Under the pieces are notes generated by a model. It saw only the letters and a list, made by a program, of their open reading frames with translations, did no database searches and was not told the origin of the DNA. The position numbers and the translations under genes were made by a program. From contig SWDI01000004.1 of NCBI GenBank assembly GCA_005116955.1, positions 118,731 through 169,150 on the forward strand: a DNA stretch of 50,420 bases, in the 5' to 3' direction. Every line of letters starts with the position of its first letter. Positions within the stretch are counted from its first letter, which is position 1. Origin of the DNA: Nitrospira sp. Its GTDB lineage: Bacteria; Nitrospirota; Nitrospiria; Nitrospirales; Nitrospiraceae. Positions 19,472-36,175 of this stretch are shown here, piece by piece.

Positions 19472-19803
19472 AGAGCCTACAGTCTGGTCAGGAGAGATGA
19501 TTAGCTGCTTCCTCTGAAAGTAGCAAAGCTAGCAAGATTGCTTTTCCTCTGTCAAGAAATGACGTCTCCTCGAAAACGACGACACCGAAAAGCAGAGGAG
19601 GCTGGCGGCAGCGGATCGATGAAGCGGTCGATTCACCGAAGAGCGGATTATCCGCACTCCTGCAATCATGCCACCTTGATTGCAGGTGAACACTACAAGT
19701 TATCTCGGAATGGGGGGCGTCATCCTCACTGATATGTCCAATCCTGCAACCAGCAAGAGGCTGCGTCACCCTTTAACTTGTTGCGCTAATGATACCGCCT
19801 AAC
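19472..19803. other. Intergenic region upstream of glyQ
   Basis: No gene is supported. The region should carry the glyQ promoter and marks the border between the housekeeping block and the accessory island. It contains a strong hairpin at 19659-19686. A 93-codon minus-strand frame (19769-19488) looks like chance. Confidence 0.5.
19659..19686. promoter_or_regulatory. Perfect 10-bp inverted repeat
   Basis: CCTGCAATCA and TGATTGCAGG pair perfectly around an 8-nt loop. No T-tract follows on either strand, so it is more likely an operator or mRNA leader structure than an intrinsic terminator. It lies about 190 bp upstream of glyQ and 118 bp beyond the stop of the unknown gene at 19804. Confidence 0.45.
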
Positions 19804-20364: not shown

Positions 20365-20458
20365 CCCCCCGTTTCAGCTCCAGCAGCGCCACCATTTCCC
20401 GATGGCCTTCCCAGCTGCCACGCGGAGCGAGGGAACCCAAAAAACGGCAACTCAGTTA

Positions 20459-21169
20459 TCACCGGAGTAGGAGTTGCACGATTTGAGCCAAGATAACTAC
20501 TAGGCTTACACCTCCAAGTGCAACTGCTACTTTTGCTAAGACTACCCAAACAAAAGAGCCGATGTATTTATTGGCAGCACGCCATGCTCCTAGTAACACC
20601 AGTGTTTGATACGCTGTGTACATGAGCAATATGATAGCAAGCAAGCCGATTGACGGAATAAGCCTCATGGCGAGGCCTACCACAAGTCCAACCAACACAC
20701 CGTAAATCCAGTAAGTCCTAGCTAAGCCGAATTCTCCAGTCACTAGCCTGCCAAAGAAGCCCCAAAGAAAAATGAGACCGGTGCCTACCCCTAGAATCCA
20801 CCAAAAAGAAAAGCCCGATAAAATATCAAAGGCTGACAATGAAGGTTCTGAAGAAAGACCTTCAGGAATAACCTTCAAGGTTCTAAGATTATCAACCGCC
20901 GATTGATCAATATATTCACCCTGGTTGTCGCTTTCTTGTCCAACACCAATGGCGTATCCTTTGGTTTCTATGTACAACCCAAACACATACAAAAAATGGG
21001 TTTTTTGTGTGCCATATCCAAAATACGCGTCTTCGAGTCCTGGAATTTCAACAGATTGAATCTTATGCAGTTCTTCGATAGTTCCCCATGGAATCGGAAT
21101 CTTGACTTTTGCTTCCACATTACTCGAAATACCAAAGAGTAGAATCAAAACAATGACCAATGCCTTCAT
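20459..21169 (-). CDS. Signal-peptide membrane protein of unknown function
   Basis: This 236-residue protein has a signal peptide (KALVIVLILLFGISSNVEA), a ~90-residue extracytoplasmic domain, and a C-terminal half with four to five hydrophobic helices (FWWILGVGTGLIFLWGFF, YGVLVGLVVGLAMRLI, LLAIILLMYTAYQTLVLL, VALGGVSLVVILAQIV). No family is recognised. GC content is visibly lower than in the housekeeping block, in line with acquisition. It lies in the same direction as the neighbouring island genes. Confidence 0.65.
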   Translation of the reverse strand: MKALVIVLILLFGISSNVEAKVKIPIPWGTIEELHKIQSVEIPGLEDAYFGYGTQKTHFLYVFGLYIETKGYAIGVGQESDNQGEYIDQSAVDNLRTLKVIPEGLSSEPSLSAFDILSGFSFWWILGVGTGLIFLWGFFGRLVTGEFGLARTYWIYGVLVGLVVGLAMRLIPSIGLLAIILLMYTAYQTLVLLGAWRAANKYIGSFVWVVLAKVAVALGGVSLVVILAQIVQLLLR

Positions 21170-21296
21170 GGCTCGTCATCCTTTCTTGCCTTCGCTAGCA
21201 AACGTAGAAGTCCATCATGATATATCCTTGTCCAGTTTCTGGGGGATCACTTTCTTAAAGTAGAATCATTTGGCAGATATTCTGGATGGAGAGGAT

Positions 21297-21698
21297 CTAA
21301 GGTTTGTCTTTGAGTCGCTTTTCAATCGCTTCGAGGCGAAGAAGAATTTTCCCTATAACCACATCAAGAGATTCTAACCTCTGGGAAATGCCAGCTTTCT
21401 CTGCTTCGTGTAGCTTCTCGAAACGATTGAGCATAATTTTGTTCTCTTCTTGTCTCGCCTGGAGCTGAACCTGTTCCAATTGTCCTCGCACCTGGGACAG
21501 TTCCTGTTCGCGCAAAAAGCTTTCGATTTTTGAAATTTCCTTGTCCTGGTGGTCCTGAGATCTACTCAGTGTGGACATTTTGGACCTGACCTCCTGCAAG
21601 TCTGACTGCTTTCCGACACATCCGCACAGAGTTACGACACAAAGTAGCGGGAGAAACCATACTGAACGGACAATTATTCTTTCTGAACACCCACTCAT
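21297..21698 (-). CDS. Coiled-coil lipoprotein, copy 1 (intact)
   Basis: From ATG 21698 this is a 133-residue lipoprotein. The signal segment (VWFLPLLCVVTLCGC) ends in a lipobox Cys. A continuous charged helix follows, with heptad-like spacing (MSTLSRSQDHQDKEISKIESFL, then HEAEKAGISQRLESLDVVIG), so it probably forms a coiled coil at the membrane. The frame is open to GTG 21740, but the bases 21740-21750 copy the end of the kinase gene at 22760. ATG 21698 is therefore the likelier start. A near-copy with a frameshift lies at 22325-22740. Confidence 0.75.
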   Translation of the reverse strand: MSGCSERIIVRSVWFLPLLCVVTLCGCVGKQSDLQEVRSKMSTLSRSQDHQDKEISKIESFLREQELSQVRGQLEQVQLQARQEENKIMLNRFEKLHEAEKAGISQRLESLDVVIGKILLRLEAIEKRLKDKP

Positions 21699-21752
21699 TG
21701 GTAATCCATTTCCGTAGTCATTGCGTACGCACTTGTTCACCTTTGTGGCGCC
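21297..21752. repeat. Duplicated ~450-bp unit, copy 1
   Basis: This segment parallels 22325-22793. It contains the last ~10 codons of the kinase gene (reading RHKGEQVRTQ-stop here against RRKGEEARTY-stop in the original) followed by the lipoprotein gene. The distal ~70 bases of both copies are identical. The duplication boundary therefore lies within the kinase 3' end. Confidence 0.8.
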
Positions 21753-21793
21753 ATACTCACACCCGCATTACTAGAAGGAGGTTTGAAGAGCGA

Positions 21794-22168
21794 TCAAATA
21801 TCCGAGAAGCTTTTTAGTTCCTGAAAGATCCCCTCTATGGGTGAAACCTGACCACAGTGTGCACAGGTGACATAGATTTGTTCTCCAAGCTCCGTACGCT
21901 TCTGAACCGCACTTCCTTGGCAGTTCAAGGCTTGACAGGGGCCGCACTTGAAAACCCCCTGGTTCCTACAGGACGGACAGCCTCCATAGTGGGTGTCGAA
22001 CTGGATGTTGCCGATCGCTTCCTCCCCGAAACCTCGTGTAGCCTGAAGTGTGGAAAGCCGGATCGTCCTTCCGGCTAGCCATCCATTGTCACTTTTCCGG
22101 AACTCGATTCCGAAGTCATGATTGTGCAGTGAGCACTTGGCTTTTACCATGCGGCTTGGTCCTTGCAT
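21794..22168 (-). CDS. Double zinc-ribbon protein (TerY-C-like)
   Basis: This 124-residue soluble protein has a hydrophobic/charged first half and a second half rich in paired cysteines: GGCPSC, FKCGPC, then NCQG, and finally VTCAHCG. These make one or two treble-clef or rubredoxin-type zinc sites. Similar zinc domains (TerY-C) are known at the end of TerY-type VWA proteins. The VWA protein of this island lacks one, so this gene may supply it separately. It sits between the two lipoprotein copies on the same strand, suggesting it was part of the duplicated or rearranged module. Confidence 0.6.
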   Translation of the reverse strand: MQGPSRMVKAKCSLHNHDFGIEFRKSDNGWLAGRTIRLSTLQATRGFGEEAIGNIQFDTHYGGCPSCRNQGVFKCGPCQALNCQGSAVQKRTELGEQIYVTCAHCGQVSPIEGIFQELKSFSDI

Positions 22169-22324
22169 CTGCTCGTTGTCCTCCCCTGAATCAAGCTACC
22201 TCGGTGATCGTTGTTATCGAATGTATGCCCAGGCCTTGGGAAATCATGTTGCAGCAGCCACTAGATTGCGGATTCGCACCAAGTGGTAGACGTCGGCCAT
22301 TGGGAAGCCTTCCGGACCGGACAC

Positions 22325-22740
22325 CTATGTTTTGTCTTTGAGTCGCTTTTCAATCGCTTCGAGGCGAAGAAGAATTTTCCCTATAACCACATCAAGAGAT
22401 CTAACCTCTGGGAAATGCCAGCTTTCTCTGCTTCGTGTAGCTTCTCGAATCGATTGAGTATAAGTTTGATCTCTTCTTGTCTCATGTAGAGATCTCCCGC
22501 CTGATGCTGAATGTATTCCAATCGCATTCGCACCTGGGGCAGTTCCTGTTCGCGCAAAAAACTTTCCATTTTGGAAATTTTCTTGTCCTGCGCGTCCATA
22601 TATTTACTCAACGTGTAAATCTGGTGCTGGGCCTCCTTCAAGTCTGACTGCTTTGCGACACATCCGCACAGAGTTGCGACACAAAGCAGGTGGAGAAGCC
22701 ATGCTGAACGGCTAGTTATTTTTTCTGAACGCCCACTCAT
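22325..22740 (-). pseudogene. Coiled-coil lipoprotein, copy 2 (3' frameshift)
   Basis: This is the paralogue of the 21297-21698 gene, sharing the lipoprotein signal (LLHLLCVATLCGC) and coiled-coil part (MESFLREQELPQVRMRLEY). Near 22400 one T is missing compared with copy 1 (AGAGATCTAACC against AGAGATTCTAACC). The frame therefore ends early with RLDLLMWL-stop at 22381 instead of continuing through the conserved tail. Restoring that base would extend it to TAG at 22325-22327, ending LKDKT. The truncated product keeps the anchor and most of the helix. It lies directly after the kinase stop. Confidence 0.8.
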
Positions 22741-22759
22741 TGGCAATCCATTTCGGTAG

Positions 22760-24799
22760 TCAGTACGTACGCGCTTCTTCACCTTTACGACGGGCTGCCT
22801 CTCGAACCGAGGGTTCTTCGTTTAAGGCTTGTCGTCGAGCCTCATTCATAGCCTCTCGTGCCCGTTCCTCCTGACCAAGTCTGGGTTCGTCAGTAAATTC
22901 TCCTTCTACTGCCCCATTCTTACGTAAGATCTCAACCACGTCTCGATGCCCGTTCTTGGCGGCGACAACAAGCGGAGACCAGCCAAACTGATCTGTCTGG
23001 TTCACTGCCGCACCCTTCGCCAAGAGCGCCTCGACCACATCCCGATGCCCCATCTCGGCAGCGAAATAGAGCGGAGACCTGCCTTTCCAAGACGTCTGAT
23101 TCACCGCCGCGCCCTTCGCCACAAGCAGCTCGACCACCTCCCGATGCCCGTGCATGGCAGCGAGAACGAGCGGAGACGAGCCCTTCGGATCTGTCTGGAC
23201 CGCTGCCGCACCCTTTGCCACGAGCAGCTCAACCACTTCTCTATGCCCGTTCTTGGCGGCGAGAAGGAGCGGAGACCAGCCATTCTGATCCGTCTGATTC
23301 ACCGCCGCGCCCTTCTCCAAAAGCAGCTTCACGACATCCAGCTCTCCCTTTGCAGCAAACTTGCGTAGGTCTGACGCATTCTTCTCGCGGGCAAGCTCAG
23401 CGCGTTTGTCTGCATCCAATTTCAACCCCGAAAAGTGTTGGGATCGCACAGGGTTTTGGGGAACCTGAGAGGCACCCGCTTGCTCAGGCGCAACAGGTTC
23501 GACTATCGCCCGCTGGTCTGTCTTCTTCTGTACGATAGCCGGAGATGGAGACGAGCTCGAGCGCTTTTCCTCCTGGGCGCTTGCGGAGCTCGGTTGTGAC
23601 ACAGCAGTGTTCTGACGGTCATCAGGCCCTTCCATGAACAATGACAAAGTAAAGAGAGCGACACCTATTGAAATTGCAGTACTGATATATTGCCTTTGTG
23701 CATTCCACACTTTCTCCCAATATCCAAGCGCAGTAGGTTGTGCTCGTGGAGCGCTTATCTGCGCGGTGTTGCAGAAGTGGCAAGGTTTGGAGAAATGGTC
23801 CAGCTGAGCGTTGTGCGGGCAACGGCGAACTTTCTGAGCTACTGTTTCCCAATGGGCTCTCCAGTCCTCGGCGCTGGGTCTGTCATGCGCGGGGCCTAGG
23901 AAGGCCCGGCGAAAGAGCAGGAGGGTATCCTCTTCCAACAGATGTGTCTGATCTCCCGTAGGCTCTAATCCCCGCCGTGTTGGATCAATAGAGAACAAGT
24001 TCTCCTTAATTCGCTCACTGACCCCAGTAGGTTCATGAGAGGAATGACGGTGCTTTCCCGCGGTAGGAAGATTTCCATTATTGAAGAGCTGGAACAGTAG
24101 GACCGCGAGTCCGAATCTCACTTGTCTATCGTCGAGGAGATCGCAAGCGAAGTCAGATGGACTCTTCGGATCTCGGAATTCCGAGGCAACAGCATCGGGA
24201 TGGGCGGCTTCGGCAGGAATGATCTGCGTGCCGCTACGAATCGCGAATCCGTCGCAGTCAAGGAGTGTGATCCATCCGTCGTTCTTGTGAAGCCGGAAGT
24301 TATCTGGGTTGAAATCTACTACCAAGTGACCGGCCTTGCGAACGTAGCTGATCACACTACACAGGTTTCTTGCTACGTATGTACGAAAAGTCCAATCATT
24401 GCGGAGCCCTTGCCTCGCGCGACTGCGTTCAGTCGTCAGGCTGTATATAGAAATGGTGTTGTGATAATCGACGGTTCTCATGGAGAACCCGATGATCTGG
24501 TCGTGCTCATCGAGGAGAAGCCGTTGCGGCCAGGCGATCTGCACGATGCTCGTCCCGTTGTGCTGAATAATCTGATGCGCTGGAGGTGCTGCAAGCATCG
24601 CCTGCACCTTGGGGGGAAGCTGGAGAACCCGCGCTTTCTCCTTAGAGGTCACATTTTTGTAGGCTTTTACAACTTCGACTCCACTCTGCAGCTGAAAAAC
24701 TTCCCCGATACTCCCTGAGTCCAGATAGGTGCCTGTAAGGGTTTCGACCGATCCATTCCCGTTCTTCAACCGGAATCGTTTTGTGCTAGCCTTAGCCAT
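22760..24799 (-). CDS. Divergent Ser/Thr kinase fused to zinc cluster, TM and ankyrin repeats
   Basis: This 679-residue protein runs from ATG 24799, which overlaps the PP2C stop by 8 nt. The kinase domain comes first: Gly loop GSIGEV (about 29-34), Lys45 in VVKAYK, catalytic loop VVDFNPDN (Asp162, Asn167) and a DFG-like DCDG (181-184). The usual HRD is replaced by V-D-F-N, as in TerY-associated kinases. A Cys/His cluster (CPHNAQLDHFSKPCHFC, about 345-362) follows, then one TM helix (STAISIGVALFTLSLFM). A charged linker and about five ankyrin units (NGWSPLLLAAKNGHREVVEL and similar, ~470-630) complete it. The kinase part would be cytosolic; the ankyrins may lie across the membrane or be a binding platform. 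It is the third gene of a VWA-PP2C-kinase unit. Confidence 0.85.
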   Translation of the reverse strand: MAKASTKRFRLKNGNGSVETLTGTYLDSGSIGEVFQLQSGVEVVKAYKNVTSKEKARVLQLPPKVQAMLAAPPAHQIIQHNGTSIVQIAWPQRLLLDEHDQIIGFSMRTVDYHNTISIYSLTTERSRARQGLRNDWTFRTYVARNLCSVISYVRKAGHLVVDFNPDNFRLHKNDGWITLLDCDGFAIRSGTQIIPAEAAHPDAVASEFRDPKSPSDFACDLLDDRQVRFGLAVLLFQLFNNGNLPTAGKHRHSSHEPTGVSERIKENLFSIDPTRRGLEPTGDQTHLLEEDTLLLFRRAFLGPAHDRPSAEDWRAHWETVAQKVRRCPHNAQLDHFSKPCHFCNTAQISAPRAQPTALGYWEKVWNAQRQYISTAISIGVALFTLSLFMEGPDDRQNTAVSQPSSASAQEEKRSSSSPSPAIVQKKTDQRAIVEPVAPEQAGASQVPQNPVRSQHFSGLKLDADKRAELAREKNASDLRKFAAKGELDVVKLLLEKGAAVNQTDQNGWSPLLLAAKNGHREVVELLVAKGAAAVQTDPKGSSPLVLAAMHGHREVVELLVAKGAAVNQTSWKGRSPLYFAAEMGHRDVVEALLAKGAAVNQTDQFGWSPLVVAAKNGHRDVVEILRKNGAVEGEFTDEPRLGQEERAREAMNEARRQALNEEPSVREAARRKGEEARTY

Positions 24800-25574
24800 T
24801 GCGCGTTGCCCATAGTAGCGTGCAGTCATCGCCACTGGTTTTTCTAACCGTGGGTTGATTCAGTAACTCTGCTAGCGCCTCTTCCCCAGCTTGACCAGGA
24901 TGCGCATGGAGAAAGTTGAGAATCGGTTCATAGAAGCGAGGTTTGGGTTGCGCGTCGGGGCCAACCGCAAACGGAGAGAATCCATCTGTCATCAACAGGA
25001 TGGACGAGACCACCGAGGCTTTCGAAATGACCACGTTCTCTCGCCAATTCGAATCGGTCAAAAAGGAAGTGATGTTGGCAAACTCACTTGGTGTGCCATG
25101 CGAAACAGCGCGGACCTTAGCTGGTGATGCGCCGTCAAAAGCGATTGCCAGTCCATCACCTAGATGAAAGAAGACACCGCCTTGGCCATACAGCACCGCG
25201 CCCACGATGGTCGCAGAATAGTCATGTAACTTCTCGCCATGCGACGCCGCTGCGTCTGCGAGTGCTTGGCGTCCTTCGGACATTGCGGTCATGATTGCGT
25301 TAGGCACCGATGTGCCAAAACCATCGGTCGCGATCCGATCCACAATTGTCTGAGCGGCAAGGTGTGCTCCCTCACCTCCTCGCGAAGCACTACCTGCACC
25401 ATCGGCCACTACAGCGATGCAGCATAACCCCTCAGACCAACAGCAAAACGCGTCCTGACAGGCCGACTCTCGTTTCTCGTGCGATGCGCCTCGCACCGCA
25501 CTCGCACAAACTCTCCAATGGTTTGCGGCAAACGACTGGTTCGCCGGGCCTAAGGCTGCGATGCGAAACGACAT
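24792..25574 (-). CDS. PP2C-family protein phosphatase
   Basis: This 260-residue phosphatase carries the PP2C motifs in order: RGASHEKRESACQDAF (metal Asp41), VVADGAGSASRGGEGA (Asp58), DYSATIVGAVL, FFHLGDG, LLMTDGFS and SGDDCTLLWA. It should remove phosphate from Ser/Thr using Mn/Mg and would oppose the downstream kinase, whose ATG lies inside its final codons. It starts 9 bp after the VWA stop. This PP2C-kinase-VWA set is the arrangement known as the TerY-P triad. Confidence 0.9.
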   Translation of the reverse strand: MSFRIAALGPANQSFAANHWRVCASAVRGASHEKRESACQDAFCCWSEGLCCIAVVADGAGSASRGGEGAHLAAQTIVDRIATDGFGTSVPNAIMTAMSEGRQALADAAASHGEKLHDYSATIVGAVLYGQGGVFFHLGDGLAIAFDGASPAKVRAVSHGTPSEFANITSFLTDSNWRENVVISKASVVSSILLMTDGFSPFAVGPDAQPKPRFYEPILNFLHAHPGQAGEEALAELLNQPTVRKTSGDDCTLLWATRNG

Positions 25575-25583
25575 GAACGTGGC

Positions 25584-26267
25584 CTAGTTGAGCTCGATCT
25601 CTAAGGTGGTGGCCGGAGGGGCCGCGATCTGGAGAGTCTTCTGCCCGTCAGATGAGCGGGCAATATTCATCAAAGTGCCCAGTAGCCATTCCTTAAGGAG
25701 TTCTACAATATCATGTTCTTTGATCGAATAGACTGTCCCCTTTGTTCCGAAATGCGAGAGCACCCGGTTGTCAGCCGGTGGAATTCCAAATACAAAGGAC
25801 GTCAAACGCTTCTCGGCGATCATTCTCTGAACGATATCCGCCGCCCCTTGCCAATCGTCTGTTGGCGCTCCATCGCTCATTAGTACTATCCAGGGCCTAG
25901 TGTACGGAATGCCGGCCGCCTTCAATTCTTGTACTTGAAGCTCGAGCTCTCCTATGGCTGCGGTGACGGCATCTCCCATGGGCGTGTTTCCAACGGCAAC
26001 TAATTTGGGCATGGTGACCTTGTCTAATGATTGCCTCTGTATAGGAGCGTCCACTCGGCCACCAAATGTAACAAGAGTCAGCAAAACACTATCGGCGAGT
26101 CGGTCCTCCTTCTTTGCCGCGTCAATAAAATCCGCCAACCCTTTGTTGAGCAGTTCAATCCGGTTATTCTCTTGCATTGAACCTGATGTATCCAGCACAA
26201 GGATGATTGGTGTCCGCTTGACCGCATCGGTTAATTCTGCATCAATCGCTGGCCTGAGGTCATTCAT
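25584..26267 (-). CDS. TerY-like von Willebrand factor A domain protein
   Basis: This 227-residue protein is essentially one VWA domain. The metal-binding MIDAS residues are complete: DTSGS at 26-30, Thr95 in GNTPMGDA and Asp132 in MSDGAPTDD. The closing strand region is TSFVFGIPPADNRVLSHF. TerY proteins have this form; here the usual C-terminal zinc domain is absent. ATG 26267 is preceded by AGGAGTAGGA, a strong ribosome site. VWA proteins typically act as scaffolds, so it may bring kinase and phosphatase to a target. It is the first gene of the triad and follows two basic proteins. Confidence 0.88.
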   Translation of the reverse strand: MNDLRPAIDAELTDAVKRTPIILVLDTSGSMQENNRIELLNKGLADFIDAAKKEDRLADSVLLTLVTFGGRVDAPIQRQSLDKVTMPKLVAVGNTPMGDAVTAAIGELELQVQELKAAGIPYTRPWIVLMSDGAPTDDWQGAADIVQRMIAEKRLTSFVFGIPPADNRVLSHFGTKGTVYSIKEHDIVELLKEWLLGTLMNIARSSDGQKTLQIAAPPATTLEIELN

Positions 26268-26335
26268 TGAATTCCTACTCCTTTCCTACTCCATTCGCCT
26301 GATGGTTCTGGTACTCGGTCAGTGAAGTTGATCCA

Positions 26336-26731
26336 TTATCTCCGAGTTGGCTGACGCACGACGTGTTGCTGTTGTTTTTGCGTTTGGCTCGGAGCTTGCG
26401 TGCTTCTTGGCGCAGTCGTCGTTGCTTGGACTGCCTGTCGCTTCCGATCGAGAATCGCCTGGTCACGCGCCTGCTTGTCCTTGGCAAGGACTTCGGCGCG
26501 GACTTTGTTCCCCTTGGCAATCCGAGCCTCTTCTTGCCGTCTGATTTCTAGATCGCGTTGTTTCTGTTGCTCTGCACGCAGGGTGGCTGGGATTTGCTTG
26601 AACTGTATCTCGGCCCGTGCCTTGGTCAGACGTGGCTTGACCTGGCGTTCCCAGACCTTACCTGTGGCGGTCGTGAGCGATTGTCCTACGACCTGCGCGC
26701 CTACGTTCCCGAGGAAGTCCGTCGGCTTCAC
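26336..26731 (-). CDS. Basic, charged helical protein, unknown function
   Basis: The GTG at 26731 is chosen as start because AGGAAG lies 7 nt upstream and it follows the preceding stop by one base; ATG 26788 would overlap the upstream gene by 56 nt. The protein has about 131 residues. It has a short N-terminal part, a long highly charged helix (RAEQQKQRDLEIRRQEEARIAK region) and a Gln/Thr/Pro-rich tail (STQAPSQTQKQQQ). No catalytic motif is seen. Its position directly before the VWA gene suggests a role as substrate, adaptor or nucleic-acid binder for the triad. Confidence 0.6.
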   Translation of the reverse strand: MKPTDFLGNVGAQVVGQSLTTATGKVWERQVKPRLTKARAEIQFKQIPATLRAEQQKQRDLEIRRQEEARIAKGNKVRAEVLAKDKQARDQAILDRKRQAVQATTTAPRSTQAPSQTQKQQQHVVRQPTRR

Positions 26732-26732
26732 T

Positions 26733-27128
26733 TCAGGGCTTCCTGGCAGCGCGGTTAAAGGTGGGAGTGATGGATGGCGTATTGGCAAGGCCTCGCTTCA
26801 TGGTTTGAGTGCGAGCGGCCTGCTTGGTTTTCGTTTGGTTGACTGCAGCGCGCACGGCCTGGCGTTTCTTTTGCTCGACCAGCGACATATTCTGTGCAGG
26901 CTTGGTGGCGCGCGGGCCAGGTGGATTAAGGACCAGTTGAGGAGCTAGTTTGTGCTTGTTCACGGGCCTAGCTGCGGCTGCATTAAACGCTGGTTTGACT
27001 TTTGGAGCGGCTAGCGCGGCCGCGTTGAAAGACTTAGAGAGCGTAGGTTTTCCAAGGGACGGGCTCCGATTTCCCTGGGCAGATTTCCGTAGCTCTAGAG
27101 CGCGAGCGACTGGATCTTTCTTCTGCAT
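26733..27128 (-). CDS. Very basic low-complexity protein, unknown function
   Basis: This 131-residue protein is rich in Ala, Lys, Arg, Pro and Asn (FNAAALAAPKVKPAFNAAAA) with almost no acidic residues. It is probably disordered and may bind nucleic acid or membranes. No domain is recognised. ATG 27128 is preceded by GGAGGTTCC, a good ribosome site. It is the first gene of the minus-strand unit that runs into the VWA, PP2C and kinase genes and shares a 224-bp divergent promoter region with the coupling ATPase. Confidence 0.65.
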   Translation of the reverse strand: MQKKDPVARALELRKSAQGNRSPSLGKPTLSKSFNAAALAAPKVKPAFNAAAARPVNKHKLAPQLVLNPPGPRATKPAQNMSLVEQKKRQAVRAAVNQTKTKQAARTQTMKRGLANTPSITPTFNRAARKP

Positions 27129-27251
27129 AATACTGGAACCTCCTCCCTAATAGGACCAATCAATCCCAATTCTGACCTGTTAAAAGCGATGGGGAGCCAC
27201 TATACAGAATCTCTCATCTCCTTTTCCAGAAGCATCTCAGGCCTGCTCGCC

Positions 27252-27267
27252 CCCTACTTTAGTAGGG
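27252..27267. promoter_or_regulatory. Perfect palindrome in divergent promoter region
   Basis: CCCTACT-TT-AGTAGGG is a perfect 7+7 inverted repeat midway between the divergent basic-protein gene (27128) and the coupling ATPase (27353). Such a site is a natural candidate operator coordinating both directions. It has no following T-tract, so it is not a typical terminator. Confidence 0.5.
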
Positions 27268-27352
27268 AGGGCAAGGGCGATGCCGTCCTTGTATATAGTG
27301 GGCACTCCCAATATTGATAACTCATCAGTGACAAGCGAAAGGCACTGCGCTT

Positions 27353-29053
27353 ATGCAGCACGGAGTATTTTCACGTCTGATTACGAACCGTTTATTGGTC
27401 TATGCCAGAATCAAACAACTCCTCATCGCGTCGGTGATTCTTGGTCTAGCGTGGCTTGTAATTGATTGGGATACGTGGGAATTACAGGCCCGTGTGGTTA
27501 TAACGGGTTGTATTTTATTGAGTGGACTGGCGGGACTTATCTGGGGAGAGATTGAACGTGTCAGAAGGACCCATGGGTTCCGACTCTTCCCGCCTGGCAC
27601 AGGAACCTTGGGATCTCGACAGGCAAAAGCAAATGAACGGTTGGCGTCGATGTGGGAGCTCTGGACGTGGCGCTGGAAAAAGCCAGCCTGGAAAGGGGCG
27701 ATTCGTTATGGACGTGTCCTTCCTGAGCACAGGTTCTTTGGATTTCCCCCCAACCTCAGAGTTGCGGGTCCGCCTGGTGATCCAAGGCATGTCATTACCA
27801 TTGCCGGTGCTCGCAGCGGAAAAGGGAGGGCCATGCTCGTTCCCAATCTGCTGCTCTACGAAGGGTCCACGATCGTTGTGGATCCGAAGGGCCAATTGGC
27901 AGCCATTACGGCTCATGTGCGCGGAAACGGCTCTGCGCGTGTGCGCAAATTCCTGGGGCAGGATATCTTCATCGTTGACCCAGAGAATATAGTTACGTCT
28001 CACCCTGTGAAGGCATCCTTCAATCCGCTGTCCATAATCGACGAACACGATCGAGAGTCCGTTCGGTACGCCAAGATTATTGCGGAGACGTTGGTTCCCC
28101 CAACAAGCAGCTCGGATGCCAATGCCGAATTTTTTGTAAAGCAGGCGCGGGCATTGTTGGAAGCCGCGATCCTCCATGTGGCGACCTTCGAACCAGAGGC
28201 TTCACGCCATTTACCGCAGGTCCGAAAGCTGCTTATGCAGGGAAGTGATTTCGATCTCCATATTATCGAGGATGAATTCGCACTTGCTGGTTTGCCGGCA
28301 CCTGTCGATAATCCGATTGACGCCTTTATTTATATGATGTCCAGAAACCCAGCATTTGGTGGGGAAATCCAAGGCGTGGCCAATCGTCTCCTGGCCGCAC
28401 AATCTTCACAGCGAACCGATATTCTCGGTGAGGTTGGGAATGCTATCAGCTTTATCGGCACGCCCGGGATTCAAGAATTTCTTGATGGGTCTGCAGGGCC
28501 GATGTTCAGTTTTCAGCAGCTGCGTGACAAAGCCACAACCATTTACATTTGCATGAGCAACACCGCGCTGCAGCGGCAGGAACGCAACTTATTGCGGATG
28601 TTGGTTGAGCTGGCAGCGGTTACGCTTGAGCGGACGCCCAAACGCAAAGACGATTGGCCAGTTCTGATTCTGATGGACGAGTTTTATTCACTTGGATATT
28701 TGAAATCGATCGATGTCGGCATTGGTGCCTTTGCGGGGTATGGAATCCTACTCTGGCCAGTTGTGCAGTCTGTCACCCAACTGAAGGAGCACTACCCAAA
28801 GACCTGGGAGAATCTTTTGGCCAATTGTCGAGCACAGCAGTATTTCGGTCAATTAGACCCTGAGACTCACAAACATCTTTCGGATCGTTTAGCAGGATTG
28901 TACTCACCCGTTGAACTCGCATCTAATATTTTTGCCATGGAGGATCGCCGCCAAGTCGTCACGTTTGCCGACCGGCCCACCTCGATGCTGGAATTGACCT
29001 ACTATGACGAGATCTTCCCCTCCAGCCATTACGATGTAGACCCCTATCTGTAG
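27353..29053 (+). CDS. VirD4/TraG-like coupling ATPase
   Basis: This 566-residue protein matches type IV coupling proteins. Two N-terminal membrane helices (LLIASVILGLAWLVI, VVITGCILLSGLAGLI) are followed by a RecA-like ATPase. Its Walker A is GARSGKGR (152-159), with MLVPNLLLYEG and IVVDPKGQ after it as in VirD4/TraG, and its Walker B is VLILMDEF (437-444). The family uses ATP to pass DNA or protein substrates through the inner membrane. No relaxase or VirB-type genes are visible nearby, so conjugation is unlikely to be its only job. It is transcribed divergently from the triad and shares its intergenic control region. Confidence 0.88.
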   Translation: MQHGVFSRLITNRLLVYARIKQLLIASVILGLAWLVIDWDTWELQARVVITGCILLSGLAGLIWGEIERVRRTHGFRLFPPGTGTLGSRQAKANERLASMWELWTWRWKKPAWKGAIRYGRVLPEHRFFGFPPNLRVAGPPGDPRHVITIAGARSGKGRAMLVPNLLLYEGSTIVVDPKGQLAAITAHVRGNGSARVRKFLGQDIFIVDPENIVTSHPVKASFNPLSIIDEHDRESVRYAKIIAETLVPPTSSSDANAEFFVKQARALLEAAILHVATFEPEASRHLPQVRKLLMQGSDFDLHIIEDEFALAGLPAPVDNPIDAFIYMMSRNPAFGGEIQGVANRLLAAQSSQRTDILGEVGNAISFIGTPGIQEFLDGSAGPMFSFQQLRDKATTIYICMSNTALQRQERNLLRMLVELAAVTLERTPKRKDDWPVLILMDEFYSLGYLKSIDVGIGAFAGYGILLWPVVQSVTQLKEHYPKTWENLLANCRAQQYFGQLDPETHKHLSDRLAGLYSPVELASNIFAMEDRRQVVTFADRPTSMLELTYYDEIFPSSHYDVDPYL

Positions 29054-29248
29054 CAGCAGAAAGCAGATGCGATCTCTCATGACGAAGACGGGCAAGACTT
29101 GCAATGAAAAGCTTCAAAGGGTCGTAAGGAGGAGTAATCTCCTGCTGAATAATCAAGCCAATAAGGGCCACTGCCGATCCTAGTGATTCACTGTCCGAAT
29201 CCGTAGCCGTGGATCTGAGCGGATAACGAAAGCGCTTATCCTCGAGAT

Positions 29249-29898
29249 CTACCGGTTCACCATTAGCTCGAACATATGTGTGGACGAGTCCGACACCGCT
29301 CTCACCTGGCGACCGTCGACACTGAAATCGACAGTCCACCTTGTCTCTCGATCGCCAGGCAGGGCCTGTTCACCTGCAACGCCACCCATCTCAAGATTGT
29401 AGATTCGGACAAAGTTCCCATAGCGATACTCGCCGTCAAGTGGATCCTTGTTGCCTCTGATGCTTCCAGCGATGGCCAGAAGTTTCACTTCGGTGAGAGC
29501 GCGAAGCCGGACCATTGCCAAGCAACGTCCGCGAATTCCGCCTTGGCGACGATCTGACGTGCATGCGTATTGAACAAACAGAGGCCGTAGTTCGTCAGGT
29601 AGAGCAAGTAGGCGTCGTTATCGAGCAATTTGAACGCCCGAATGGTGCTATCCCAATTCCCATCGAATCCGGAGGATTTCACCACTCTGAACTTTTCGCC
29701 TCGCGAGAACATGAACGTTCCCGTCGTATCAACAAGCGAGACCCCAGGGGCGTCAATACCGCGTAAGACCGCGCCAAATGTCTTATGCGTGATCCAAAAA
29801 CAGTTGCCAGCGTAAACGCACTTGGTTGTATAGCCTAGCGACCCTGCGCCATCGAGTAGGAAGCCTACTGTGGTCCAATCTCGCCTCAGCATACTCAC
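29249..29898 (-). pseudogene. Propeller-like protein gene broken by a frameshift
   Basis: Two overlapping minus-strand frames, 29898-29485 and 29521-29249, read as one protein if a single base is restored near 29488. The first ends FALSPK-stop while the second continues KLLAIAGS, as in a WD40/YVTN-type blade (F-x-L-S-P-x-x-K-L-L-A). Strand-rich pieces such as DNDAYLLYLTNYGLCLFN and VDFSVDGRQVRAVSDS support a propeller or similar beta fold. Further protein-like sequence continues in a third frame to about 29090, so a second frameshift is possible. It follows the DUF1566-like gene by 29 bp. A sequencing error cannot be excluded. Confidence 0.65.
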
Positions 29899-29927
29899 GA
29901 ATTAGTAAGGGATGGATCACCGACTTG

Positions 29928-30545
29928 TTAGACGGTTCTAACCAGCATGATTGGAAGACGTGTTTTGACCTCCGTGTCCCATATCCACCTATCGGCGTTC
30001 GCTGCCCACGCGCAATTGTGTATTGATCTGAGAAACGGAACCCACCAGGTGTGCAGGAGAGTTTCATGGCGCTCGGTGGCGGTCCAATGGTATTGATCGT
30101 AGCCAAGCTGCATCACGGTACTCCTTTTCCCAAGACCAGAATCTCGAAGTCCCAATAGCGTGTACCATTCAGCGAGGGTGGGAAGGCGCCAGTCATCGTA
30201 GCCAGCAAATACCACATGACAAGTACCCCGTGTATACCCAAAATTCATCCCTGTCGAGCGGAACTGCTCTGCCGAAAGACCGATGGTACCGCTTTCTGTA
30301 AGCCCAACTCGCACTCCGCAACCGAACTGTTGCTTGGCTTCTACCCACGAATAAAGGGAGGGCGAACCTAAGAACTCACGCCCATTCCACCGCATTCCCC
30401 ACGGAGCCTGGATCCACATAAGACCAGCTTCCGCGCAAATGGCCGTTCCATTTCCCGTAACAGCCCAAGAAACCTTGCGTGGACCAATGAAGTGGCCCGT
30501 GTCTTCCGATCCTGTAGGAAGCTTCCACTCGAGGACAACGTTCAT
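29928..30545 (-). CDS. DUF1566-like (Lcl C-terminal type) protein
   Basis: This 205-residue protein has an aromatic- and glycine-rich domain with the elements GLMWIQAPWG, SWVEAKQQ, DDWRLPTLAEWYTLL and HWTATER. The sequence W-R-L-P-T-x-x-E-(W/L) followed later by a Trp-Thr-Ala-Thr-Glu element is characteristic of DUF1566/Lcl C-terminal domains, which are related to formylglycine-enzyme-like folds. No signal peptide is evident. GGGAGAGCGAGGAG precedes the ATG. The role is unknown; such domains often occur in surface or phage-tail-like proteins. It lies just upstream of the frameshifted propeller gene. Confidence 0.75.
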   Translation of the reverse strand: MNVVLEWKLPTGSEDTGHFIGPRKVSWAVTGNGTAICAEAGLMWIQAPWGMRWNGREFLGSPSLYSWVEAKQQFGCGVRVGLTESGTIGLSAEQFRSTGMNFGYTRGTCHVVFAGYDDWRLPTLAEWYTLLGLRDSGLGKRSTVMQLGYDQYHWTATERHETLLHTWWVPFLRSIHNCAWAANADRWIWDTEVKTRLPIMLVRTV

Positions 30546-30702
30546 CTTTTTGCTCCTCGCTCTCCCTTACTAGAAATTGCAGGGCTATGTTTCACGTCGA
30601 CGAACTGGATGGCGTGGCCATCAAGCTATCGGGCGAGACCGAATAGGACGAAGCCTGTATCGGCGGATCGCAAAGACCGTCGCTGTCCCGACCAATATAG
30701 GC

Positions 30703-31209
30703 TCAAAGATTCTTGATGCGCTGAAGAATTCGAACAAAATCATGGCCGTGTATCAGTTCTCTGCTTTGTGAGTCTAGCCTAAATCCCAGTATTAGCCTTC
30801 CCACCATACCTCTGTCTTTTCCGAGATAGTAGCGAAGGTCGTTTACAGCTTCCGGATATCCACAATGTTGCTGGTTTCTGTGATTGAAAACAAGGAATAG
30901 TGGGCCGTCTTCATAAAAGAGCGCAATGGTCACTTTGTCACCATCTTGAATACCGATATCTGTTTTTAGGTCGACTCTGGTCACCGAAAATATATCCTCG
31001 AATGCATCGTTCGTCTCGGAACGTCCTTTTTGGAAAATGAATCTTGCACCACCATCTGCCAACCCATGATTCGCACGATATGTTCCTGTTTTAATGAATA
31101 TGGGCACATGCTCACCAGCGAGACAACATGCTTCATGTAATGGACATGCTTCCATGACGGCGTATTCCAAGACACGGGTTACCTTATCGGCAGACCCAAG
31201 GTATCGCAT
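30703..31209 (-). CDS. Hypothetical protein, island gene
   Basis: This 168-residue soluble protein is not recognised. GGAGTG lies directly before ATG 31209, a usable ribosome site. Two closely spaced cysteine groups (ACPLHEACC) near residue 25 could bind a metal or form a disulfide. The middle shows alternating strands (PLFLVFNH, VTIALFYED). It lies on the minus strand between the DUF1566-like gene and the small envelope protein, probably in the same transcript. Confidence 0.6.
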   Translation of the reverse strand: MRYLGSADKVTRVLEYAVMEACPLHEACCLAGEHVPIFIKTGTYRANHGLADGGARFIFQKGRSETNDAFEDIFSVTRVDLKTDIGIQDGDKVTIALFYEDGPLFLVFNHRNQQHCGYPEAVNDLRYYLGKDRGMVGRLILGFRLDSQSRELIHGHDFVRILQRIKNL

Positions 31210-31250
31210 TCACTCCGATTGACAACATGGTAGTGCTATCGTGTGGTCGT

Positions 31251-31778
31251 TCAGTCGGCGCTTCGGGTTTCTTGTATGCGAATCATTCGTGCATCGAGAT
31301 CATCCGACAACTTCTCCAAGGCCGCGACTTGGGCATTCATGATCAGGGCAAATACTCTTTTGTATTTATCCATGGCTTCCGCCTTGGTGCGTACCCCCTC
31401 CAGGAAAGTGGCTGAATCGCCAGCAAACTCTTTTCCGGCAAAGTACCATTCATCCTGCTGTTCTTTGGTGAACCACATGCGGAGCAATAAATAGGTCTCG
31501 CGAAACCACCGCGCTTCGTCTTCATCATCATACTTCCCTTCGTCTTCATCATCATTTGGCGCAGCGAGATTCATCACGCTCTGTACTAGCCGGAGTCCTT
31601 TCGCGCACTGGGTAGCCAACTGAGCCTTCGCCTCGAAGAACTCGGCACGCGTGGTCAGGGTTGCCAAGGTTTGGGGACTCGGCAGGACGGCATTTACGGG
31701 GGAATGCTCTTGCGCGGAGGCAATCCCAGCCGAAGAAAGACTAAAAGCGAGGATCATCAGGTACCGTACGAGCACCAT
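31251..31778 (-). CDS. Exported helical protein, paralogue family A
   Basis: From ATG 31778 this is a 175-residue protein with a signal peptide (YLMILAFSLSSAGIASAQE). The mature part is helical and acidic in the middle (NDDEDEGKYDDEDEARWF). Its order of elements parallels the C-terminal half of the protein at 32494: AKGLRLVQSVM against AEGLRLSQKVI, and AQVAALEKLSDDL against VQVATLEKFSRNL. The N-terminal part also resembles the truncated gene at 33323 (SPQTLATLTTR against SPQTMATLTTR). No function is known. It lies 41 bp after the upstream hypothetical gene, facing away from the next gene. Confidence 0.7.
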   Translation of the reverse strand: MVLVRYLMILAFSLSSAGIASAQEHSPVNAVLPSPQTLATLTTRAEFFEAKAQLATQCAKGLRLVQSVMNLAAPNDDEDEGKYDDEDEARWFRETYLLLRMWFTKEQQDEWYFAGKEFAGDSATFLEGVRTKAEAMDKYKRVFALIMNAQVAALEKLSDDLDARMIRIQETRSAD

Positions 31779-31891
31779 TCCCAATACCTACTTTGGGTTC
31801 ACGAACCAGCCCTCTATATCACGAACCCCTAATCAATGGCGAGTTGGTTGATTCGAGAAGCTTTGTAGAGACCAAGACCGCCTTACACGGT

Positions 31892-32287
31892 CTAGTCGAA
31901 GAGAGCGCGCGATCTGTGCACTGTCATACACTGGATCGAGGTCAATCCAAGGTCGAGTTCACGGGGCGGATAAACTTCGTCATAAATTTTCTCTATGGTT
32001 TTCTCGCAAACTGACTTACCTGTGTTAATCGTGCGCCCACTGATTGGGCCAAGAAGCAGGAAGAGAGCACTCAAATGATCGTGAGATATTTCGAAAACCT
32101 GCTCTTGGCCATGCAGGATGTCGCCGACTTCTTTCGCCATTTCCGGCATTACGCCAGAATAAATATCAACATGGCTAATTCTTTCGGCTGCACCAAGACT
32201 CAACGCGGCAAGATCACCCCGCTTATCATCGGGCATCTCTAGAACAATATTGTCACCGACCCTTCCGTGAAATCGCATTGATAACAC
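31892..32287 (-). CDS. Hypothetical protein with unclear start
   Basis: From ATG 32287 this is a 131-residue protein of unknown function. The in-frame sequence upstream to about 32395 is also protein-like (RVGVTIIDCRRIGNKESLPLV) but has no ATG, GTG or TTG. An ATG at 32413 lies in a neighbouring frame and would join by a one-base shift. The gene may therefore be longer and frameshifted. The region ISHDHLSALFLLLGPISG is the most conserved-looking part. It is on the minus strand. Confidence 0.5.
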   Translation of the reverse strand: MLSMRFHGRVGDNIVLEMPDDKRGDLAALSLGAAERISHVDIYSGVMPEMAKEVGDILHGQEQVFEISHDHLSALFLLLGPISGRTINTGKSVCEKTIEKIYDEVYPPRELDLGLTSIQCMTVHRSRALFD

Positions 32288-32493
32288 CAGAGGTAGCGAT
32301 TCTTTATTGCCGATGCGTCGACAGTCAATGATTGTAACTCCAACACGGCGCTTCTCAACACGGCACCTTTCGGCCCTGATATACCTAGTTCACCCTCGTG
32401 AGTCTAATCATGGTAGGTTGACCATCCAGTTTGTAATGGTGACACATGGTTCAGACCTACGGTCTATCTGACCAATAAAGGAGGCACGTGAGC

Positions 32494-33318
32494 ATGAATC
32501 CTGACTGGGTATCGGTGGTGGGAGTCTTCTTTGGCGAGATTTTGAAGCACTGGATGTTCTTCCTAGGGGCTGTCGTTCTGATAATTTCGCTCCTCTCGTT
32601 TGAAACGATGGTGCTCCGGCGCAAGGCTTCCCGAACAGGATATGTTGTAATCCTCGCTTCATGTCTTCTCTTTATGAGTTTTGCGGTCTGGCAAGATCAA
32701 CATCATCAAATTCGAGACGATTTGAACAGGCTTCAAGCTTCCGACACTGAAAAAGACAGGTTATCTGGCCAAGTCGATAAGCTTTCGAAGTTCGTTGAAC
32801 AACAGGATAGGCTGCTGACCGACAAATCTAATGCCCTGGTATCTATTGAAGCGCAATATCAGACGGCGCAACGCGCCTTGGCCGTGGAGAAGGAGAAATA
32901 CCGATCTACTTATGCAAGGGCCCGGTTGGCATCCCTTCGCGCAGAAGGTCTACGTCTCTCACAGAAGGTCATTGCCAATCCCAACGAACCAATGCCAGAT
33001 TGGGAATTCGATGCCTGGTCGCAAGCGACCGAGAGAACTTTGTATACGCTGTTCCATCGAGAGCAGATTCAGGATTTCAACGCCGCTCGAAAGGCTGCGC
33101 TCACTTATATGAGAAATTATTACGACGACTACCTGGCTCGCTCCGGGGGAGTTTTGATGGAGGAGGAGTTTAAGGAATTTCAGAGCAGGCTGATCGCTCT
33201 ATACATTTCAGTTCAGGTTGCGACGCTGGAAAAGTTTTCGAGAAATCTCAACTCAGGACCATTAAAAAACGATAAATCAATTATTTATTGGCAAGAGCTC
33301 ATCACACAAAATCGCTGA
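32494..33318 (+). CDS. Membrane-anchored coiled-coil protein, paralogue family A
   Basis: ATG 32494 is chosen because AAAGGAGG lies 9 nt upstream; GTG 32488 is too close to that site. The 274-residue protein has two N-terminal membrane helices (WMFFLGAVVLIISLLSF, VVILASCLLFMSFAVW), then a long coiled coil (LSGQVDKLSKFVEQQDRLL to about residue 140). A helical C-terminal domain like that of the exported protein at 31251 follows (AEGLRLSQKVI, VQVATLEKFS). It would place this domain on a stalk at the membrane. The partner and function are unknown. Confidence 0.7.
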   Translation: MNPDWVSVVGVFFGEILKHWMFFLGAVVLIISLLSFETMVLRRKASRTGYVVILASCLLFMSFAVWQDQHHQIRDDLNRLQASDTEKDRLSGQVDKLSKFVEQQDRLLTDKSNALVSIEAQYQTAQRALAVEKEKYRSTYARARLASLRAEGLRLSQKVIANPNEPMPDWEFDAWSQATERTLYTLFHREQIQDFNAARKAALTYMRNYYDDYLARSGGVLMEEEFKEFQSRLIALYISVQVATLEKFSRNLNSGPLKNDKSIIYWQELITQNR

Positions 33319-33322
33319 AGAT

Positions 33323-33532
33323 CTAACGGTGCGGACAACCTGGCCGAAAACCTTTCGCACACTGCGTTGCTAAATGAGCCTTCGTCTGGAACAACTCGAC
33401 ACGTGTTGTCAGGGTCGCCATGGTTTGGGGGCTCGGCGGGTCGGTGTGTATGGGTGGATGATCCTGCGCGGATGCAATCTCGACCAAAGAAACACCGAGA
33501 GTCAGGAATATCGCGTACCGTTTGAGCATCAT
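33323..33532 (-). pseudogene. Truncated paralogue of the exported family A protein
   Basis: The first ~57 residues parallel the protein at 31251: signal peptide (RYAIFLTLGVSLVEIASAQ), then DPPSPQTMATLTTRVELFQTKA and LATQCAKGF. Then it stops with RPGCPHR instead of entering the long helical domain. It is convergent with the gene at 32494 and ends 5 bp beyond that gene, suggesting deletion during rearrangement. Confidence 0.7.
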
Positions 33533-33757
33533 CTATCAACACCTAGAGCATGCGGTCCACGAACCAGTACTCTATATCATGAACGCGTAATCAAAGAGAG
33601 TTGGTGGGTTTTGAGCTCTGAGGAGATTAAGGCCGCCTCACCCAGTCGGCAGATCCCTGCGCATGAACGTGTGCGTATCTTAATGGAATGGACCCGTTCC
33701 TAATTTGTTCCGATCTCAGAAGAGCTCAAGCTGACATCGGGGACAGCAGCACAACCC

Positions 33758-36175
33758 TTATTGCAATTTTGCCACCGTCACCCCATCTCCGCCCTCGGCC
33801 TTGTCACCTGGGCGAAACTCGGCTACATAGGGCGACTCCTTGAGGTATTCCCGCAAGACAGACTTGAGTCGACCAGTGCCGTGGCCGTGAATGACGCGGA
33901 GGAACGGCGCCCCGTCTAAAGTCGCCCGATCCAAAGCCGTCACAACCCGATCAAGTGCCTCATCCGCCGCTTGGCCCCGCACATCCACCACGGTCTGTTC
34001 ATCAAGCCCCAGTCCATTGCTCGTCGAGACTCGACGATAACCTGAAGCCAATGAGACTGGTTGGGCTGTCACAGGATGCGGCTCACGCGGGATGCCAATA
34101 AGGTTTGACACGCTGGCCAAAACTTCACCCTCCCCGACTTTCACGCGGACTCGCTTTTTCCCTTGTGGCGTTTCCAATAGGCTTCCGGTCATCCCTAAAC
34201 CGGCGATCTCCACGCTATCCCCGACATCCAGCTGTTCAAGGGGAATCGGCGTACTGGCCGGCGTAAGCTCCTGCCTGGTTTTCGTCTCCAACTCATGCAA
34301 CCGCTGTTTCGTCTCCTTGGCCTTGATGAGTTTCTGCTCACGCTTCAAGGAATCGACAGTGGCCTGGACCTCGGCCCGTGCCCGCTGAAATTGTTCGCCC
34401 AGTTTCTTCTTAAGACCCCGTTGAGCCTCCTGCTCGGCTTCTTCCAGTTGCGCTCGAAGCGCCTGTGCCTCCCGAGCCGCTTGTTCTGCTTCGTGCCTAG
34501 CTCGCTGAGTCTTCTCAGCATCATCGGCCAATTGGCGTTGCTTGCGCTGCAAATCAGCCATCAATTCATCAAGCCGGTGGTCCTCATGATGTAACCGCCG
34601 CCGCGCATCGTTGAGAATGCTTTGATCCATACCCAGACGACCGGCAATCTCCAAGGCCGATGACCCGCCAGGAATCCCGATAAACAATCGATAGGTCGGC
34701 GCCAATCGTTCCACGTCGAACTCCACACTGGCATTCATAAAACCGGAGGTCGTCTGCGCCAGCTCTTTGAGTGCGCCATAATGCGTCGTCACCACCACCT
34801 TCATGTTCAGCTCAGCCAAGCGGCACAGCAGCGCCTCGGCCAACGCCGCGCCTTCTTGCGGATCGGTGGAGGTCACAGGCTCGTCCAGGAGAACCAGCGA
34901 GCGCGGCGTGGAACGTTCGCTCAACATCGGTTGGGTGGCGCTCTCGGAGAGGAGTCGGATCATACTTGTCATATGGGCGGAATAGCTGGACAGATCGCGG
35001 GTCAGATCCTGCGCATCACCGATATCGGCATAGAGATGGGTAAACAGTGCCATCTCCGATTCCGGAGCGCAGGGGAGATGCAGTCCGGCCCTCACCATGA
35101 GGGCGAACAGCCCGACAATTTTGAGTGTGACAGTCTTTCCTCCCGTGTTCGGGCCGGAAATCACCAGGATACGGACCGTCTCATCCATCAGAATATCGTT
35201 CGCGACGACCTGATCTTTGGCGATGAGCAACAGCGGGTGCCGCGCCTGCGTGAGCATCACACGCCCATCCTCATTCAAGCCGACGGGGTGACACTTTAGC
35301 CGACGACTCATCTCGGCCTTTGCGCGAATGACATCACAGTCAGCCAATACTGCTATCCCTTGGCCGATATCTCCCACTCTTGAGGCCACGAGAGCGGTGA
35401 GCTCCCGTAAGATACGCTGGACCTCCCGTTCAATCTCCAAATCCGCCACTTTGATGGAATTATTCAGCTCAACCAACTCCCGCGGCTCCAGAAAGACGGT
35501 GGCTCCGCTGGACGACACATCGTGGACGATCCCAGGAATTCTTCCCCGCATGTCCGCCTTCACCGGCACGACATAACGCCCCTCTCGCTGGGCGAAATAC
35601 GACTCTTGCAGCACATCCTCATAGCGCTTGGAGTGGAGCATCTGCTCAAGCTGCTGCCGCATCTCCTGCTTCAACCCCTGAGCCTGATGAGTCAGACGCC
35701 GTAGCTCCGGCGTAGCCGTATCTTTCATGGAACCGTCCGACTGGATCGCCCCCTCGATGGCCCTCAGGACGCCCTTCAATGTTTTTGTGACATGCAGCGG
35801 CTCCAAAACCTGCGCGAGAGCCTGCAGTTTGCCTGGATGAGTCTCAGCGTATCGCTCGACGTCTGCCATCAGAGCCAGCACCACTGCACAGTCTCGCAAC
35901 TCGACGGCCTCAAGCGCTCCTCCCTTTCCGGATCGGATCAGTTGCTCACGAATATCGGGGAAGGTGAGCGCCGGCATCGGATCACTCCCTTCCAGCAAGC
36001 TCACCATCTCGGTCGTTTCTTGTTGACGCAGGCACACCACGGCGAGATCGTTCGATAAGGCAAGCGACCGGCATTGAGCCACTCCCATTACCGATTGTGC
36101 ATGCTGTGCAAGGAATTCAAGGACACGAGCCCACTCCAACACCTCCATCGCATGATCTGATAATGATGTATTCAT
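33758..36175 (-). CDS. mutS2: Endonuclease MutS2
   Basis: MutS2 is an 805-residue ATPase with an Smr nuclease domain; in other bacteria it affects recombination and ribosome collisions. The MutS ATPase core shows Walker A GPNTGGKT followed by VTLK, then SSYSAHMTSMIRLL and the Walker B region LVLLDEPVTSTDPQEG, then VVVTTHYGALKELA. A long charged coiled coil (QRKQRQLADDAEKTQRARHE region) follows. The C-terminal Smr domain starts VDVRGQAADEAL and contains IHGHGTGRLKSVLR. Length and order are normal for the family. It is divergent from gap, with about 220 bp between. Confidence 0.95.
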   Translation of the reverse strand: MNTSLSDHAMEVLEWARVLEFLAQHAQSVMGVAQCRSLALSNDLAVVCLRQQETTEMVSLLEGSDPMPALTFPDIREQLIRSGKGGALEAVELRDCAVVLALMADVERYAETHPGKLQALAQVLEPLHVTKTLKGVLRAIEGAIQSDGSMKDTATPELRRLTHQAQGLKQEMRQQLEQMLHSKRYEDVLQESYFAQREGRYVVPVKADMRGRIPGIVHDVSSSGATVFLEPRELVELNNSIKVADLEIEREVQRILRELTALVASRVGDIGQGIAVLADCDVIRAKAEMSRRLKCHPVGLNEDGRVMLTQARHPLLLIAKDQVVANDILMDETVRILVISGPNTGGKTVTLKIVGLFALMVRAGLHLPCAPESEMALFTHLYADIGDAQDLTRDLSSYSAHMTSMIRLLSESATQPMLSERSTPRSLVLLDEPVTSTDPQEGAALAEALLCRLAELNMKVVVTTHYGALKELAQTTSGFMNASVEFDVERLAPTYRLFIGIPGGSSALEIAGRLGMDQSILNDARRRLHHEDHRLDELMADLQRKQRQLADDAEKTQRARHEAEQAAREAQALRAQLEEAEQEAQRGLKKKLGEQFQRARAEVQATVDSLKREQKLIKAKETKQRLHELETKTRQELTPASTPIPLEQLDVGDSVEIAGLGMTGSLLETPQGKKRVRVKVGEGEVLASVSNLIGIPREPHPVTAQPVSLASGYRRVSTSNGLGLDEQTVVDVRGQAADEALDRVVTALDRATLDGAPFLRVIHGHGTGRLKSVLREYLKESPYVAEFRPGDKAEGGDGVTVAKLQ

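Follow-up and report, generated by a model that had tools for sequence, protein, structure and literature searches.

A VirD4/TraG-type coupling ATPase, two very basic proteins (bas1 and bas2) and a signalling triad of VWA protein, PP2C-type phosphatase and kinase travel as one block in Nitrospira, and the block has stayed intact despite a change of site. One copy lies in the window analysed here (the whole stretch of 50,420 nucleotides, positions 118731-169150 of contig 4 in a 3.65-Mb genome of 99.8% completeness), the other in a second genome of the same genus, G145. The earlier note had proposed that the triad controls the loading of substrates on the ATPase: the association of the genes stands, and we infer that the triad may control the ATPase. 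The reading that we favour, although tentatively, is that of a horizontally moving block in which a TerY-P-like triad has been joined by a stand-alone membrane motor of the VirD4 type, whose loading would be set by phosphorylation. The span 26336-29053 comprises three genes (bas2, bas1 and the ATPase), not one; all features are collected in table 1.

Table 1. Position and character of the features of the block, in window coordinates
Feature	Position	Strand	Remarks
Block common to the window and G145, 10.8 kb	19773-30565		DNA similarity
Predicted envelope proteins of 186 aa and 236 aa, encoded downstream of the triad	19804-21169	-	G145 identity 94% and 89%
Pair of small, related lipoprotein-like genes	21297-21740, 22381-22782	-	both match one place in G145
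Cysteine-rich gene, 124 aa, between the lipoprotein-like genes	21794-22168	-	unmatched in the part of G145 that was read
Triad kinase: kinase-like domain, zinc-ribbon-like Cys motif, membrane segment, ankyrin repeats	22760-24835	-	
PP2C-type phosphatase	24792-25574	-	PF13672, E 6.4e-38
VWA protein, TerY-like	25584-26267	-	PF00092, E 2.4e-7; MIDAS-type residues seen in sequence
bas2, basic protein, 131 aa, pI 11.4	26336-26731	-	start corrected to GTG (probable)
bas1, basic protein, 131 aa, pI 12.0	26733-27128	-	27 K+R to 3 D+E
Divergent control region, 224 bp, with palindrome CCTACTTTAGTAGG at 27253-27266	27129-27352		conserved in G145
VirD4/TraG-type coupling ATPase, 566 aa	27353-29053	+	PF02534, E 7.8e-49
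Short ORFs behind the ATPase	29249-30545	-	G145 matches of 55-91% identity by piece

Extent and Movement of the Block

Over the block, the DNA of the window and of G145 is 83-89% identical. The similarity consists of four pieces, with 21745-22331 left as a gap, and a further, weaker piece is found at 31251-31861. At the protein level the identities are 95% for PP2C, 93% for the ATPase, 91% for bas2, 84% for bas1, 79% for VWA and 78% for the kinase. The gene order ATPase-bas1-bas2-VWA-PP2C-kinase is constant in both copies; the other island genes differ. Chance adjacency in a single strain is ruled out, since the block recurs at this level of DNA identity, and at a different site, in a second genome. 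With two copies only, which share one ancestor, the adjacency that has been kept nevertheless counts as a single case. Of the accompanying genes, the two predicted envelope proteins have hydrophobic segments and no Pfam family, and a 205-aa protein among the short ORFs behind the ATPase has a weak Lcl_C match (E 2.7e-6) below the cut-off. Near the right end of the window copy, the genes at 31251-31784 and 32488-33318 both match one G145 gene (55% and 28% identity) located near the end of its insertion. The G145 insertion also has an FtsW/RodA-type gene, none of which was found in the window copy.

The two sites have different contexts. The window copy is located in the glyQ-mutS2 interval, which spans approximately 19560-33762, and in G145 the block is found amid flagellar genes, within the flagellar operon. 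In G256, which is closely related to the window genome, the glyQ-mutS2 interval measures about 0.7 kb; in G206, which is without the block, the flagellar parts found on either side of the insertion in G145 are separated by about 180 bp. In two further genomes (G149 and G202), glyQ and mutS2 are separated by about 14 kb of other genes, one of which, in G149, has a weak cytochrome c match. The interval is thus variable within the genus, so that the block-free state of G256 is not proven to be ancestral. Inspection of the junctions by eye gave no clear repeats at the island ends.

The divergence of the block genes provides additional information on the timing of this movement. Between the window and G145, dS ranges from 0.06 to 0.88 across 11 block genes. 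For core genes, the window genome was represented by G256, whose glyQ, mutS2 and GAPDH are at a dS of 0.19-0.36 from its own, and dS between G145 and G256 amounts to 1.4-2.2 for four flagellar genes, a fifth, FliG, giving no hit. The block genes are therefore far less diverged than core genes, which indicates horizontal movement, most likely after the two lineages split.

The Coupling ATPase

The 566-aa product is a genuine, intact VirD4/TraG-type ATPase, as supported by its Pfam matches, by conserved alignment columns and by its nearest predicted folds. Besides PF02534, both PF12696 and PF10412 are above the cut-off in the Pfam scan. When the protein is aligned with its 93% relative and with three plasmid coupling proteins, the stretches GARSGKGR and LILMDEF, which we take to be of the Walker A and Walker B type, respectively, fall in conserved columns, and further residues are shared. 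Two hydrophobic helices occupy approximately residues 14-32 and 46-64 at the N-terminus. What had been concluded from the letters alone, namely a VirD4/TraG-like ATPase with intact Walker motifs and N-terminal helices, is thus upheld. The ATPase is also under strong purifying selection: its dN/dS toward the G145 copy is 0.074, the lowest among the 11 block genes measured.

The AlphaFold2 model of the ATPase has a mean pLDDT of 72, with much of the ATPase core good and residues 70-142 poor. In a Foldseek search with this model, the top solved fold is Cag-beta (8dol; E 4.8e-16, TM-score by query of about 0.5), and TrwB is nearly as close. Cag-beta serves protein export. This raises the alternative that the ATPase is an export adaptor which, in the manner of Cag-beta, hands basic or envelope proteins to a resident secretion path. 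Such a role would agree with Cag-beta being the best solved-structure match by sequence as well as by fold, and with the several predicted exported or membrane proteins encoded in the block. By sequence, however, the match is a weak one (E 2.7e-6), the DNA coupling protein TrwB is nearly equal in fold, and no channel was found in searches for VirB4 (one model) and VirB10, so we regard an export adaptor as quite improbable.

The Control Region and the Basic Proteins

The ATPase gene and the two basic genes that lead into the triad diverge from a common control region, as the earlier note had described. Its palindrome, CCTACTTTAGTAGG, has one exact match within the window and is present in five of the 141 loci compared, all five of which cover the own-genome or the G145 copy of this region. 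Both basic proteins contain 15-16 Ser/Thr residues, and neither bas1 nor bas2 (in its longer form) has a Pfam family above the cut-off; the long form of bas2 also found no match in plasmids.

Judging from the substitution pattern, bas1 is clearly coding, with 15/7/43 substitutions over the three codon positions relative to G145 (dN/dS 0.15), and its three FNxAA repeats are conserved in both copies. The picture for bas2 is different in kind. The listed start is a TTG at 26788, but an alternative GTG at 26731 overlaps the bas1 stop, is preceded by AGGA and has an ATG at the equivalent position in G145; this GTG is probably the true start. We prefer such a coupled GTG/ATG start over a fusion of bas1 and bas2 by frameshift. 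Over 393 nt, the candidate coding gene bas2 has no indel and 20 substitutions relative to G145, distributed 8/5/7 by codon position with no third-position excess, and its dN/dS of 0.84 rests on a dS of only 0.06. This dS is unusually low next to those of the adjoining genes, which are near 0.6, and suggests a mosaic history or an overlapping constraint.

The Signalling Triad

A TerY-P triad consists, according to the available text of PMC11090510, of a TerY-like VWA protein, a PP2C and a kinase with a zinc ribbon. The window trio resembles it: the VWA, PP2C and kinase genes are adjacent in that order, an arrangement also seen at 71 of 75 related loci, and three Cys residues behind the kinase domain are invariant across seven triad kinases. 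Unlike in the other kinases of this alignment, the His of the Cys motif is displaced by two positions in the window and G145 copies. The window kinase further differs from that of the TerY-P triad in adding a membrane segment and ankyrin repeats, and the window triad has a VirD4-type ATPase as its divergent partner, plus the two basic proteins.

The kinase was identified by alignment with six other triad kinases, the Pfam scan giving ankyrin families and no kinase family. In PP2C, the residues DGAGSA, GDG and DD are invariant across the seven sequences aligned. Residues that we read as being of the catalytic type are present in both proteins, Asp/Asn in the kinase and Asp motifs in PP2C. The membrane segment of the kinase, at approximately residues 383-401, occurs in the window and G145 copies alike, and so kinase and ATPase are probably both located at the inner membrane.

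Distribution of the ATPase and of Triads

At E 1e-30, the ATPase was found in 2 of 295 genomes of the phylum, the window genome counted. At E 1e-20, three of 175 genomes of the family were positive (the window genome, G145 and G301), the block ATPase itself being present in two of the 175. A PP2C search of 59 relatives, G145 not among them, recovered the window genome and G306, a member of the same genus with a divergent TerY-P-like triad and no ATPase relative in the 20 kb read.

We also examined 75 triad loci obtained by one kinase pattern scan of genome contigs, which by record title are all from Proteobacteria apart from one MAG titled Lactobacillaceae. The conserved neighbourhood for which the earlier note had recommended a search did not emerge: no relative of the ATPase was found at any of these loci, some of which are short. 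VWA and PP2C are present at 71 of them, and at 65 of these 71 trio loci the sequence ahead of the VWA match extends for 2.8 kb or more, enough for an ATPase placed as in the window. When ORFs of at least 150 codons at the 75 loci and at five more were searched with a coupling-ATPase profile, a single match was obtained, on a Methylocystis plasmid, where it is annotated beside virB11 and virB10. Thus, the pairing of triad and ATPase is not general among triads, and a triad does not need the ATPase. Two sets that contain no known positive genome were also negative, a result that carries no weight by itself; they comprise 398 genomes of the phylum to which one triad carrier belongs (at E 1e-45) and 22 triad-bearing genomes, corresponding to 22 of the 75 loci (at E 1e-20). 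In viral contigs, the ATPase alone as query gave no confirmed relative; an alignment as query gave eight T4CPs of 26-31% identity, none of them with a triad by tblastn. No PADLOC system model fits the block: the kinase has matches in its ankyrin region and PP2C a weak one, and the ATPase, VWA, bas1 and the long form of bas2 have none. PHROGs yielded nothing informative.

These counts bear on an alternative in which an ordinary TerY-P triad operon and an ATPase gene unrelated to it are independent cargo units of the block, which have one intergenic region in common and move together without working together. That two units merely co-travel is nearly as likely as a single system. The ATPase lies on the strand opposite to that of the triad, which also speaks against the one-system reading; the two known copies are related, and the window and G145 islands differ in other genes as well. 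On the other hand, the ATPase and bas1 have diverged to a similar degree (dS 0.55 and 0.59, respectively) and are still adjacent after relocation. Furthermore, the basic genes are co-directional with the triad, yet they are no usual feature of triads. When raw ORFs of at least 60 aa are counted, the 2.5 kb in front of the VWA gene contain two or more of them at 66 of the 75 loci, and a bas-like pair (the nearest two ORFs co-directional, 100-200 aa long and with a pI of at least 11) was found at none of these 66.

Conjugation Genes and Mobility

The block ATPase is the one match of PF02534 in its own genome. A Pfam scan of 40 ORFs of the window detected no relaxase or channel family, in line with what had been noted for the window. 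The suggested check of the rest of the genome for relaxase and VirB-like parts gave the same outcome for two relaxase families, VirB4 and VirB10: the own genome has no match to PF03432 or to PF03135 (VirB4, one model), and neither it nor G145 or G306 has a match to PF03743 (VirB10) or to the relaxase family PF03389. Control genomes were matched by the same families (n = 14; PF03432 in 1, PF03135 in 1, PF03743 in 2 and PF03389 in 1). In the own genome these searches cover the assembly alone, and a helper plasmid could lie outside it.

A further alternative is that of a reduced mobilisable element in which the ATPase has been kept for transfer of the island through the channel of a helper plasmid, with the triad as cargo. 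The ATPase matched 355 plasmid records, and all four of the plasmids examined among its plasmid relatives (29-35% identity) also carry a relaxase or mobA gene. In addition, the G301 relative (35% identity, same genus) is located on a plasmid-like contig, contig 200, accompanied by a MobA/MobL relaxase and a ParA-type gene, and the block itself has been transferred between genomes. Against this, a coupling ATPase without a relaxase lacks a known DNA substrate; PF03432 is missing from the own genome, and PF03389 and VirB10 from both the own genome and G145. No integrase or transposase family was found among the island ORFs scanned. On balance, we consider a mobilisable element unlikely.

Comparison with Known Systems

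The ATPase resembles the VirD4/TraG/TrwB coupling proteins in its PF02534 match, motifs, N-terminal helices and fold, and differs from them in that no relaxase or T4SS gene was found for the families searched. One parallel among plasmids concerns the small plasmid p2 of Sphingobium sp. CAP-1, where a coupling ATPase of 34% identity occurs without annotated channel genes, the gene table being incomplete. On such small plasmids, however, a relaxase and MobC adjoin the coupling protein, and neither is present in the window block.

Triads with other partners are on record. In the available text of PMC11090510, TerY-P triads occur in CoCoNuT operons with EssC-like, SpoVK-like or HerA/VirB4-like ATPases, and the role of the triad is offered as a hypothesis. 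Type III-A CoCoNuTs are thus similar to the window block in combining a TerY-P triad with a further ATPase, which belongs to the FtsK/HerA superfamily in two of three variants. As presented there, the ATPases in question are EssC-like, SpoVK-like (AAA+) or EccE3-HerA/VirB4-like, whereas that of the window is VirD4/TraG-type; moreover, those operons are McrBC-type with duplicated VWA genes, whereas the window block has a single VWA gene. Among the block genes scanned, Pfam gave no McrB, McrC or nuclease family. Elsewhere, a paper on H. pylori ties the triad to type VII genes in its accessible portion, and the part of PMC7159879 at hand describes a kinase-PP2C-vWA trio in actinobacterial systems with TraG/VirD4 unmentioned. 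The block had been put forward as the best candidate for an undescribed system, a wording that is too strong, since the triad resembles the published TerY-P triad, and triads with pump ATPases, EssC-like or HerA/VirB4-like, are already in print (PMC11090510). A pairing with a VirD4-type ATPase was not found among the open-access papers searched.

A Possible Mechanism and Its Implications

We return to the favoured reading, that of a triad setting the loading of a stand-alone motor by phosphorylation. Its membrane segment would anchor the kinase in the inner membrane, the ankyrin repeats lying on the other side, and the output of the kinase would be set by the VWA protein and the phosphatase. 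Its target could be the ATPase or, more likely, bas1 and bas2. These proteins may have nucleic acid or the motor as their binding partner, perhaps by way of the FNxAA repeats of bas1, and would in this way gate loading. The motor, finally, would transport its substrate, DNA or protein, either along the inner membrane or across it, presumably in a stress or defence response and not in conjugation. A more specific version, which we hold to be doubtful, envisages a coupling ATPase that no longer serves conjugation and has come under a switch of kinase, phosphatase and VWA protein. It would then be a stand-alone, signal-controlled pump for DNA or protein at the inner membrane, with bas1 and bas2 as phospho-gated nucleic-acid adaptors, the whole forming a mobile stress or defence block.

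Should the link between triad and ATPase prove real, a coupling ATPase would be seen to work under phosphorylation control in the absence of a conjugation channel, and TerY-P triads would gain a concrete target that can be tested. The block is small and can be expressed whole.
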